The position numbers and the translations under genes are program-made. Source: Planctomycetota bacterium (GTDB lineage Bacteria > Planctomycetota > UBA8742 > UBA2392). Taken from it: a stretch of DNA of 64,000 nt. The stretch covers positions 1 through 64,000 of the forward strand of contig JAJVIO010000005.1 of the NCBI GenBank assembly GCA_022071975.1, in the 5' to 3' direction. Numbering within the stretch: the first letter of the stretch is position 1; every line of letters starts with the position of its first letter. The notes beneath the pieces were generated by a model that worked only from the letters and a program-made list of their open reading frames with translations, searched no databases and had not been told where the DNA came from. This document shows positions 837-62,220 of the stretch, piece by piece.

Positions 837-2201
837 ATGCCTGACGATGCCGCCGAGCCGGTAGCCTTCTCCAGCCACCTCGATGAGCTGCGCAAGCGGC
901 TGATCTGGTCGCTGATCGGCGTGTTCATCGCATTCTCCGTGGTGTTCGCCACCTTCGCCGACGACATCGTCCGCTACATCCTCGATATCGCCGTGGACAG
1001 CCGCGACGGACACCGCATCCAGTTCGTCGTCATCAACCCCATGGAAACCTTCAGCACCACCATGCGCGTCAGCATGTACGCGGCCGTGGTGTTTGCGTAC
1101 CCGTGGGTGATGTTGCAGGCCTACCTGTTCATCGCGCCCGGCCTGTATCGCCACGAGCGCAGCTTCTTCCGCTTCGCCATTCCCACGATTTTCGTGCTGT
1201 TCATGGGCGGCGCGGCATTCGGGCGCTATGTGCTGCTGCCGGTCAGTATTCCGTTCTTGCTCAGTTTCAACGTGAACGAGTTTGGCGTGCAGGAGAACTA
1301 CACCCTGGGCCAGTACCTGGGGCTGATCTTCGCCATGACCTTCGGCCTGGGATTCATCTTCCAGATCCCGCTGATCGTGGCGCCGCTGATCCGTTTCGGT
1401 CTGCTGTCGCCGGAGTTCTTCAAGAGCAAGCGGCGCTACACGCTGCTGATCGCCGTCATCATCGGCGCCGTGGTTTCACCCACGGGCAGCCCGGTGGACA
1501 TGCTGCTGGCCGGCCTGCCGGTGTTCTTCCTGGTGGAGGGCGGCGTCTGGATCGGCCGGCTGTGGAAGCTGCGGGTGCTGAAACGCGCCGAGAAAGAGGC
1601 GCTGGCCGCGGCCGAGCGCGGCGAGAAGGTGGACCCGGAGGCGCTGGCGGGCGGGCTGGCGGTTGACCTGGAGAAGAAGCTGCTGGAGTTCAGCCAGGGC
1701 GGGGCGCGCAAGTTCGCGCGCGAGCTGGTGGCGGGCTTCCGCGAGAGCGGCAAGGACATCGAGACGATTTTTGACGACGACTACAAAGACAGCGACAAAC
1801 CGCCGGTCGAGGTGAAGCTCAAGCCCCGCAAGCCCAAGCCGAAGTTCGAGCAGGAAACGGCGACAGCGAGTGCCGAGTCGGGAACGGCCGGTCAGGAGTC
1901 GAGCGTCCCGAGTCCCGTGTCCACAGCGACTGCGGAGCAAGCATCCGAACCGCAAGACACGGAACCCGGGACACGGGACGCGGGACAAGCAGTAACCGAC
2001 ACGGAACCCGGGACACGGGACACGGAACAGGAGTACCCCGACCGTCCCTGGGACGAAAACGTGGACGAGCAGCTGGCGCGCTACATTGAGGACCGCATCA
2101 GCCAGCGCATGGAACAGTTCTTCGAGCGCGAGCTGCGCCCCTGGATGGACCGCATCGAACACGAACTGCAGGACCGCAACGGCAACGGCAAGCACGAGTA
2201 G
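837..2201 (+). CDS. tatC: Sec-independent protein translocase subunit TatC with long charged C-terminal extension
   Basis: This is the polytopic receptor subunit of the Tat pathway, which recognises twin-arginine signal peptides and moves folded proteins across the inner membrane. The start at 837 opens with the family motif SHLDELRKRL near residues 12-21. FIAPGLYRHER (near residue 98) and SPTGSPVDMLLAGLPVFF (near residue 214) are typical, with about six membrane segments before residue 240. TatC is normally about 250 residues; this one is 454. The extra 200 residues are charged and partly encoded by heptamer repeats (TEPGTRD twice). No tatA is visible nearby. The fold assignment is firm; the role of the tail is unknown. 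Confidence 0.93.
   Translation: MPDDAAEPVAFSSHLDELRKRLIWSLIGVFIAFSVVFATFADDIVRYILDIAVDSRDGHRIQFVVINPMETFSTTMRVSMYAAVVFAYPWVMLQAYLFIAPGLYRHERSFFRFAIPTIFVLFMGGAAFGRYVLLPVSIPFLLSFNVNEFGVQENYTLGQYLGLIFAMTFGLGFIFQIPLIVAPLIRFGLLSPEFFKSKRRYTLLIAVIIGAVVSPTGSPVDMLLAGLPVFFLVEGGVWIGRLWKLRVLKRAEKEALAAAERGEKVDPEALAGGLAVDLEKKLLEFSQGGARKFARELVAGFRESGKDIETIFDDDYKDSDKPPVEVKLKPRKPKPKFEQETATASAESGTAGQESSVPSPVSTATAEQASEPQDTEPGTRDAGQAVTDTEPGTRDTEQEYPDRPWDENVDEQLARYIEDRISQRMEQFFERELRPWMDRIEHELQDRNGNGKHE
1901..2030. repeat. Heptamer repeat arrays inside the tatC tail
   Basis: Units such as GGGACAC, GGGACGC and GGGACAA run in phase at about 1967-1986 and again at about 2009-2029. A reverse-complement tract (CGAGTCCCGTGTCC) lies just upstream near 1908-1921. 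This is the same inverted-pair layout seen in intergenic heptamer arrays elsewhere in the window, but here it is translated. Confidence 0.7.
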
Positions 2202-2678: not shown

Positions 2679-3236
2679 ATGAGCATCACCAACGATGAAT
2701 GGCGCAACGTCAAACTCTTCGTCTGCGACGTGGACGGCGTGCTGACCGACGGCACCGTGATCTACGGCCCCGAGGGCGAACTCGCAAAGCCCTTCTTCAT
2801 CCGCGACGGCATGGGCCTGCGCCTGCTTGAGGCCGCGGGCGTGCGCGTCTGCATCATCACCAGCGAAGACAGCCCCGTGGTCGCCGGCCGCGTCAAGCGC
2901 CTGATGCTGAGCGCTTATCGGCCGGGCATGAAGCGCAAGGGCGAGGCGCTGAAGGCGCTGATGAAGCAGTTTGGCGCCGAGGCAGCACAGACCGTCTACG
3001 TGGGCGATGACGTGAATGACGCCGAAGCATTCGAGATTGCGGGCATCCCCTGCGCGCCGGGCGACGCCTCAAGCTTTGCGATTGAGCGCGCGAAGTACGT
3101 CACCGCCAAGCCGGGCGGCCGCGGCGCCGTGCGCGAGCTGGCCGACCTGGTGATCGCTGCCAAGGGGCTCAACCCCGACCAGCTCTGGCGCGGCATCCAC
3201 CGCGCCGCCGAAAGCCACGACGCAGGCTCAGTGTAG
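2679..3236 (+). CDS. kdsC: 3-deoxy-D-manno-octulosonate 8-phosphate phosphatase (HAD superfamily)
   Basis: It is predicted to hydrolyse Kdo-8-phosphate to Kdo in the cytoplasm, a step of lipopolysaccharide core synthesis. The 185-residue protein has the HAD nucleophile motif CDVDGVLTDG near residues 15-24, the IITSEDS motif (HAD motif II region) and the metal-binding GDDVNDAEAF motif. Length and the absence of a cap domain fit the KdsC type of HAD enzymes. The start follows an AGAAGGAG site. A related sugar-phosphate HAD enzyme associated with sialic-acid synthesis is the main alternative. If correct, the cell makes Kdo-type LPS. Confidence 0.85.
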   Translation: MSITNDEWRNVKLFVCDVDGVLTDGTVIYGPEGELAKPFFIRDGMGLRLLEAAGVRVCIITSEDSPVVAGRVKRLMLSAYRPGMKRKGEALKALMKQFGAEAAQTVYVGDDVNDAEAFEIAGIPCAPGDASSFAIERAKYVTAKPGGRGAVRELADLVIAAKGLNPDQLWRGIHRAAESHDAGSV

Positions 3237-3555
3237 CCCAGTACGGCGTCAACCAGGTTCTGCGGCAGTTGACGGTGTCGAACCATGCGGGAGCCGCCAA
3301 GGGCCGCAAAGCACTGCTACTGCGACATCGCGCAGAGTGTCCAGGCGCTGCCCCGCAGTTCTTTGCGACCTTCGCGATCTTCGCGTCAATGGGCCACGAA
3401 AACACGAAAACACCAAAGGTACTGCCACAAAAACTGCCGGCAGTTTTCGTGCGCAGTTGTTTTGTGCTTTGGTGTTTTCGTGGCCTGTTCGCAGTTGGCA
3501 ACCGGTTGTACTTCAGGACAGAGTGCAACTGGCGGAGAACCTGCCTGCCGCTGCG
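3237..3555. repeat. Repeat-bearing gap between convergent kdsC and the SulP gene
   Basis: This gap holds short-unit repeats (GGGCCGCAAAGCAC, CACGAAAACACGAAAACACC and reverse partners such as TTTGGTGTTTTCGTGG). The 2.4-kb gap carries a closely similar sequence. No gene is supported. Confidence 0.6.
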
Positions 3556-28331: not shown

Positions 28332-28731
28332 GGCTGTTTAAACCCCGGTTCAAACCACAGCGTCCAACTTAGCGAAGCCACGCGCCACGCCAAGAGCGAA
28401 TACAGGAGGCCAAGGTCGGGAATCGGGTGGGGCGGACAGCCTGTCCGCCTGCGATGCTGAACAGCAAATTACCAATAACCAATTTTCAATTACCAATGAC
28501 AAAGGCCGGGAACCACGAAGGGCCACGAAGGACCACGAAGAACCGCACAGACGGGTGATCGCTTCGTACTCCCTGGTTGTCCTTCATAGTCGAGTCCACG
28601 CGAGGCAGTGCCAATTGGTAACTGGTAATTGGAAATTGGTTATTGGTAATTCGCTGTTGGTCGCATCTGCCGCCTGCCTCCTGCCTCCTGCCTCCTGCCT
28701 CCCGCCTCCCGCCTCCCGCCTCCTGAACTGC
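28332..28731. repeat. Gap with inverted heptamer arrays and CCTGCCT array
   Basis: AATTACCAATAACCAATTTT (from about 28454) and its partner GGTAATTGGAAATTGG (from about 28627) form an inverted heptamer pair. Between them are GGGCCACGAAGGACCACGAAG units. At about 28672-28735 runs a CCTGCCTC heptamer array. GGCGGACAGCCTGTCCGCC near 28432-28451 is another palindrome. No gene is supported. Confidence 0.7.
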
Positions 28732-30072: not shown

Positions 30073-30082
30073 GGCTTCGCCA

Positions 30083-30170
30083 GGTTGTAGGGATTAGGTT
30101 GTAGGTTGTAGGGCGGCGACGCATCGGCATCGGCCCTACAACCTATAACCTACTACCTACAACCTGCTTC
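30083..30170. repeat. Inverted pair of GGTTGTA-type heptamer arrays
   Basis: AGGTTGTAGG, ATTAGGTTGTAGGTTGTAGG at about 30082-30111 is answered by ACAACCTATAACCTACTACC at about 30138-30168 after a short loop. The unit is seven bases with point variation. The same unit type recurs near 61.99 and 62.19 kb. Confidence 0.8.
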
Positions 30171-30403: not shown

Positions 30404-30500
30404 AGTTCGAAGTACAGAGTACTGAGTACAGCGTACAGAACTGCCTGGGGCGTCACTGTACTCAGCACTCTGTACTCTGGACTTCCTCTACTTCCTACTT
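30404..30500. repeat. Inverted pair of GTACAGA-type heptamer arrays
   Basis: AGTACAGAGTACTGAGTACAG (seven-base unit GTACAGA/GTACTGA) at about 30410-30440 is followed by the reverse array ACTGTACTCAGCACTCTG at about 30456-30478 and TACTTCC units to about 30500. These continue to the end of the next gene. Confidence 0.8.
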
Positions 30501-61977: not shown

Positions 61978-62220
61978 GGGGGCAGGTTACAGAATTCAGG
62001 TTTTAGGTTGTAGGTTTTAGGTTGTAGGGATTCCGCTTCGAACCCAAAACCCGCCCACTTCCTATCTTCCCGCCGCCTGCCTCCTGCTTCCTGCCTCCTG
62101 CCTCCTGCTTCCTGACTCCTGCCTCCTGCCTCCTGCTTCCTGCTTCCTGCCTCCTGCCGCCTGACTCCTGCACCTCACACCTACAACCTAAAACCTAAAA
62201 CCTATAACCTGACTCGCTCA
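61978..62220. repeat. Inverted GGTTTTA/GGTTGTA arrays flanking a CCTGCCT array
   Basis: AGGTTTTAGGTTGTAGG units at about 61996-62030 are answered by CTACAACCTAAAACCTA at about 62180-62212. Between them, about 62068-62170, runs CCTGCCTCCTGCTTCCTG (seven-base unit, about 15 copies). The gap is the only space between the yhaM-like gene and the CHASE2 gene and holds both divergent promoters. Confidence 0.85.

Follow-up and report, generated by a model that had tools for sequence, protein, structure and literature searches.

The window analysed here, a 64,000-nucleotide stretch of contig C13 of a 4.24-Mb planctomycete genome (G000; its sister genome, at 95–96%, is G005), contains a tatC gene with tandem heptamers inside the part that encodes the C-terminal tail. 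Did the repeat make this tail long, and how can units of seven nucleotides persist in a reading frame? The features of the locus are as follows.

837–2201, + strand: tatC, 454 residues, recognised as an open reading frame and by Pfam PF00902; the sole TatC match in G000
1605–1829, + strand: first conserved block of the tail, AAAERGEKVDPEAL...FDDDY...KPPVEVKLKPR, from an alignment of 11 sequences
1821–2036, + strand: variable linker of 72 residues (216 nt), with the heptamers inside, sitting between two conserved blocks
1905–1921, + strand: left arm of GTCCCGN units, reading VPSPVS, inverted repeat with 1969–1986
1922–1955, + strand: loop of 34 nt, exceeding the loop length of many other copies, from the inverted-repeat analysis
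1956–2029, + strand: right arm and array of NCGGGAC units, reading DTEPGTRDAGQAVTDTEPGTRDTE, from Tandem Repeats Finder and a repeat search
2034–2198, + strand: conserved C-terminal block, YPDRPWDENV...HELQDRNGNGKHE, in frame 3' of the array

Structure of the heptamer element in tatC

Residues 13–228 of the protein match the Pfam TatC family PF00902 (E = 2.6e-54; 184.6 bits versus a cut-off of 25.1). The C-terminal block contains the further motifs PDRPWDEN...ARYIEDRISQR...ELRPWMDRIEHEL. Among named genomes, the nearest TatC match is from Planctomycetota isolate FR_29, with 96% over the first 288 residues, and it matches the TatC of G005. An AlphaFold2 model built with 11 sequences gives coil at residues 313–410 and helix at 411–449, and with a mean pLDDT of 40 is too poor for conclusions.

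The initial annotation placed translated heptamers at 1901–2030 in the tatC frame, in an inverted layout like that of arrays elsewhere. Its coordinates are right, the array is confirmed by two programs, and the heptamers are translated within the tail, as the frame 837–2201 spans the array. Specifically, Tandem Repeats Finder reports a period of 7 at 1956–2029 (10.6 copies, 65% matches, consensus GACACGG), and the repeat search reports an inverted pair, 1905–1922 and 1969–1986, of 18 nt with 94% complementarity. Copies elsewhere in G000 show the same arm arrangement. The array also has a higher-order unit of 42 nt, which occupies 1956–1997 and, partially, 1998–2029 (1956–1987 and 1998–2029 are 94% alike). 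A stem-loop scan of the window, with criteria that were too strict, found two stem-loops and missed the tatC copy because of its loop.

The long TatC tail is a family trait

TatC relatives are present in all 16 family genomes, and all 16 have the long tail; a clear heptamer array is found in two of them, G000 and G005. The C-terminal block is likewise present in 16 of 16, with the DRPW motif in 13 and in a divergent form in three (G013, G014 and G015). Between fixed anchors, the linker has 72 residues in G000 and 70 in G005. Linkers without a clear heptamer array have 48–72 residues: 72 in G002 and in one of two tatC genes of G003 (C115), 66 in the other (C98), 63 in G004 and G008, 57 in G010, 50 in G009 and 48 in G001. 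In G016, the single representative of the order that falls outside the family, the TatC alignment is limited to residues 8–316.

Because heptamer-free relatives have the tail and a similar linker, the long tail characterises the family as a whole and is not a repeat artefact, and the repeat filled or replaced the linker. The proposal of the initial annotation that heptamers had, at least in part, lengthened a protein of about 250 residues to 454 thus fails, since heptamer-free family members are about as long and carry blocks on both sides. That proposal named a conserved tail without heptamers in distant relatives as evidence against itself, and the comparison of TatC tails found such a tail. 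Long tails in array-free relatives exclude the heptamers as the cause of TatC length. A search for TatC C-terminal extensions in Planctomycetes within a collection of open-access papers returned nothing pertinent.

A lag-7 test of the tatC linkers, which left out G012 because its anchor differs, gave weak period-7 signals in G003:C98 (codon-shuffle P = 0.008–0.011, uncorrected) and in G015 (P = 0.016, uncorrected). With these signals, the array could be older than the split between G000 and G005.

Some relatives differ in other respects. The TatC proteins of G001, G003:C98, G006, G009 and G010 align in two segments, interrupted after about residue 56 (loci L005, L006, L017, L018, L024, L025 and L026); the interruption in G001 (L005) is an insertion of ~140 residues. 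The two tatC genes of G003, a metagenome-assembled genome, are distinct (C115 and C98, 72% and 78% to that of the window) and point to either paralogy or a mixed bin.

A dispersed palindrome across genomes

The element has the layout (GTCCCGN)n-loop-(NCGGGAC)n and occupies 17 places in G000, of which 14 are palindromic and three have a single arm. These comprise 13 places from the palindrome pattern, a two-armed place on C72 and three single-arm places from the pattern CGGGACNCGGGACNCGG; the 16 outside the window were retrieved and read. Copies are ~53–114 nt long as delimited, and AACNGC or GGCAG, a candidate conserved loop core, occurs in many, not all, of the loops.

The pattern CGGGACNCGGGACNCGG matches 27 times in G000 (reversed control 0), nine times in G005, five in G008, three in G011, once each in G001 and G007, and not at all in the other 10 genomes of the family set. 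The palindrome pattern GTCCCGNGTC-N(4-34)-GACNCGG matches 51 times in G000 (reversed control 1), 21 in G005 (0), 18 in G011 (0) and 13 in G008 (1). Across the phylum, 147 of 294 genomes had matches to the pattern, in most cases about as many as to the reversed control; these four genomes and G195 (14), G017 (11) and G102 (10) reached 10 or more. Because most phylum-wide counts are close to the reversed control, the heptamer has expanded in few lineages.

Seven of the 17 places in G000 lie in frame in conserved genes, with Pfam matches on or around both sides: those for an ABC-F ATPase, TatC, a Kdo transferase, PriA, an AAT-family hydrolase, a cation efflux protein and MnmG. The remaining places are outside recognised genes, several of them directly 5' of a start codon. 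For G005, eight of nine places were read (C1:1339382 was left out), and four of the nine are in genes, namely those for TatC, PriA, an FAD/Fe-S oxidoreductase (by Pfam) and a protein that we take, from reading its sequence by eye, to be a haloalkane-dehalogenase-like hydrolase (HLD).

The comparison of insertion sites covered nine gene sites, in up to six relatives. Of the seven G000 sites, G005 has the element at two, TatC and PriA, and other sequence at four (ABC-F, Kdo transferase, AAT hydrolase and MnmG); an orthologue of the cation efflux gene was sought in G005 and none was found. Little or no insert is present at the AAT site in G002, G003 and G004, or at the MnmG and HLD sites in G003. 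At the site of Acs, presumably acetyl-CoA-synthetase-like as judged by eye from its sequence, six of six genomes have little or no insert, compared with the element in G011.

Some of these sites have been used more than once. In the ABC-F gene, the element is found both in G000 and in G008, which belongs to another genus. The MnmG gene carries it in G000 and G001, and in G004 and G005 the site is occupied by another heptamer family, which reads ILDSGFSILDS...SIQNP.SKIQN. A GAACTCA-type palindrome is found in the FAD/Fe-S gene of G004. Such reuse across genomes reflects either repeated insertion or the drift of one old insert. We suggest tentatively, with more doubt than confidence, that protein loops (in ABC-F, MnmG, PriA, the FAD/Fe-S oxidoreductase and the dehalogenase-like hydrolase) might be standing slots for selfish heptamer palindromes, in which lineages load the same loop with different families, any phase or orientation gives the same mild spacer, and copy number changes in steps of three heptamers (21 nt). 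As a separate observation, the ABC-F gene of G008 (L101) has a second heptamer array, of CGAACAC type (TPNTEHR), directly behind its GGGACNC element.

In this uncultured planctomycete family, heptamer palindromes thus lie in frame in core genes, and close genomes have them, lack them or have swapped them. These genomes provide before-and-after pairs for how selfish DNA becomes protein sequence. The pairs also bear on why genes tolerate a period of 7 and on which loops in essential enzymes can take up 20–40 extra residues.

Proposed origin and role of the tatC copy

In the reading that we favour, with a probability of roughly 0.8, the heptamers of tatC represent a single copy of the dispersed palindrome, which entered the linker of an already long tail and serves as a neutral spacer whose frame is held by selection. 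The palindrome would have entered the linker before G000 and G005 separated, and the insert would be translated as a neutral hydrophilic spacer that is kept in frame by selection on the C-terminal block behind it. A selfish or passively spreading palindrome may survive in a loop or linker if its net length is divisible by three. The linker is probably disordered and the encoded peptide functionally neutral. Copy number and presence or absence at sites suggest that the element has spread, probably through transposition or template-directed copying; changes within arrays probably arise by slippage.

Y1 transposases are abundant in G000, with 28 Y1_Tnp matches. No element was found at the four Y1 transposase loci inspected (L189, L190, L207 and L208), and at these loci a RAYT mover is unsupported. 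A clean insertion with target duplication is likewise unsupported, because the boundaries of the element at empty sites are ragged. At L208 of G005, a 96-nt palindrome of TTTTGGA heptamers (3163–3258) lies ~1.3 kb from the Y1 transposase, probably by coincidence.

An alternative is that the element is kept for its RNA or DNA structure, as a hairpin or G-quadruplex tuning translation or DNA handling, with coding being incidental. The tatC stretch does fold better than its dinucleotide shuffles (−60.5 versus −48.9 kcal/mol; z = −2.9), and quadruplex formation in vitro is reported for the GGGAATC heptamers of Xanthomonas (PMC4692102). However, a hairpin follows from the palindrome, and a quadruplex motif (four GGG tracts with short loops) is absent from the tatC copy and present in just 5 of 25 copies. 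In addition, the element is missing from the tatC of most relatives and from many orthologous sites, hence has no conserved role there. We therefore regard a structural role as unlikely.

Reading frame and selection

Gain or loss of one heptamer shifts the frame, as the initial annotation pointed out, since 7 is not a multiple of 3. Its further suggestion, that copy number drives frame change downstream, does not agree with the comparison of G000 and G005. Specifically, the gaps in the tatC linker are 6, 21 and 21 nt in a MAFFT alignment, each divisible by three, and strong purifying selection acts on the block behind the array. A second aligner splits the upstream gap into 8 + 13 with the total unchanged. 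At the PriA site, common to both genomes, the differences are 15 and 42 nt; 42, like 21, is divisible by 7 as well as by 3.

The 165-nt block 3' of the array has seven synonymous and no non-synonymous codon changes between the two genomes (dS 0.27, dN 0), which indicates that it is translated in the given frame and selected. The corresponding numbers are nine and one for the first tail block, and 37 and 11 for the TatC core.

Phase variation, in which heptamer slippage would switch the C-terminal 55 residues of TatC on and off, is accordingly very improbable. The array is tandem, its length differs between lineages and its unit is not a multiple of three, all of which speak for such a switch, but every indel that separates the two lineages in tatC or PriA is a multiple of three, and the block behind the array has no non-synonymous change. 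Moreover, the units are imperfect (65% matches), slowing slippage, and the element also occurs in PriA and MnmG, where switching off would be costly. At the sequence level, the two lineages compared speak against habitual frame switching by these arrays.

That the tatC stretch is an ordinary low-complexity Pro/Thr/Gly linker with heptamers by chance can be dismissed: low-complexity linkers of similar length do occur at the same place in relatives, but the lag-7 self-identity of 0.45 was reached by 0 of 2000 codon shuffles, a complementary arm is present, and copies across the genome (51 palindrome-pattern matches versus 1 in the reversed control) refute it.

Why a period of 7 is tolerated in genes

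Each strand of the repeat encodes one cycle of seven residues, GAGTCCC reading ESRVPSP and GGGACAC reading GTRDTGH. Because 7 = 1 mod 3, an uninterrupted arm gives the same seven-residue cycle in any phase, and because the element is palindromic with complementary arms, either orientation gives the same two peptides. Such repeats are unusually tolerable in genes, as only the net length must be a multiple of three. Consistent with this, the units of 12 coding copies enter at all codon phases and read as VPSPESR-like and DTGHGTR-like peptides.

The GGGACNC arms are stop-free on both strands, a property shared by about half of all heptamers and, where five or more of the seven letters are G or C, by at least 85%. 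Complete elements, loops included, are open in all six frames in 5 of 25 cases, compared with 2.4 expected from shuffles; few are open because the loops often hold TGA, and thus the element is not a fully frame-free cassette. Six-frame openness was rejected as a special property, since it is near expectation and only the arms are stop-free, as is usual for GC-rich heptamers.

Comparison with known systems

Rickettsia palindromic elements (RPE) are described in the cited sections of PMC10969869 as short palindromes of ~150 bp in several families, many in frame in unrelated housekeeping genes, with a conserved encoded peptide per family. The heptamer element resembles them in being a palindrome dispersed in one genome (14 palindromic places in G000), in frame in unrelated genes (seven in G000) and absent from four of seven sites in G005. 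It differs from the published description in being ~53–114 nt long and heptamer-built, with a peptide set by the repeat period.

Intragenic REPs of the GTAG and CGTC families are likewise palindromic repeats within genes. As summarised in part of PMC3733652, they occur inside genes including those for replication and repair, add 20–30 residues and are thought to occupy loops or linkers; the recB genes of two Xanthomonas species have different REPs at about the same site. GTAG REPs are described there as short single stems with a GTAG end and RAYT genes, and CGTC REPs as having a CGTC end, an 8–9-bp stem and a 4–5-bp loop, whereas the heptamer element has heptamer arms and longer stems and loops. 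A GTAG end is found in 1 of 25 heptamer elements (2.8 expected at random places). CGTC occurs near the end of 15 of 25 (6.3 expected), a count that is biased because the arm itself begins with GTC. By analogy, the heptamer element appears to work like RPE and intragenic REPs, and membership in neither can be asserted.

The GGGAATC and GGGGA(C/T)T heptamers of Xanthomonas and Nostoc are, in the consulted part of PMC4692102, distributed genome-wide with 70–75 inverted pairs per Xanthomonas genome, mostly in intergenic arrays with four G-tracts preferred. The planctomycete element is similar in its G-rich heptamers, genome-wide distribution and inverted pairs, and dissimilar in that conserved genes hold seven of its 17 places and a quadruplex motif is absent from the tatC copy. 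For the TAACTGA heptamer arrays of Beggiatoaceae, translation as a repeating heptapeptide has already been noted (PMC4679880, in the section cited); TAACTGA has stops in all forward frames and lies mostly at gene ends, unlike the stop-free GGGACNC arms. PARCELs and nematomorph mitochondrial palindromes are also palindromic yet protein-coding (excerpts of PMC2996958 and PMC6649704), PARCELs being tandem 25-residue domains and the nematomorph palindromes encoding conserved residues, not spacers.

Within the cited portions of this literature, coding palindromes come chiefly from Rickettsia, plus occasional intragenic REPs. Within a collection of open-access papers, a search on planctomycete heptanucleotides, in-frame palindromes in Planctomycetes, and heptamers and reading frames found no earlier description of this planctomycete element.

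Other repeats in the window

The window contains further heptamer palindromes and nested heptamer arrays, in the same inverted layout, at 30081–30166, 30411–30483, 61998–62210 and 28467–28725, with the motifs AGGTTGT/ACAACCT, AGTACAG/CTGTACT, AATTACC/AATTGGT and CTGCCTC. Positions 1–230 and 382–620 form a near-identical intergenic direct duplication with 8- and 9-nt repeats. A double hairpin, GGGACAGTCCCC / GGGGACGGTCCCT, lies just 5' of tatC at 716–746, and a similar sequence is found in frame within the Kdo transferase gene of G005 (L147).
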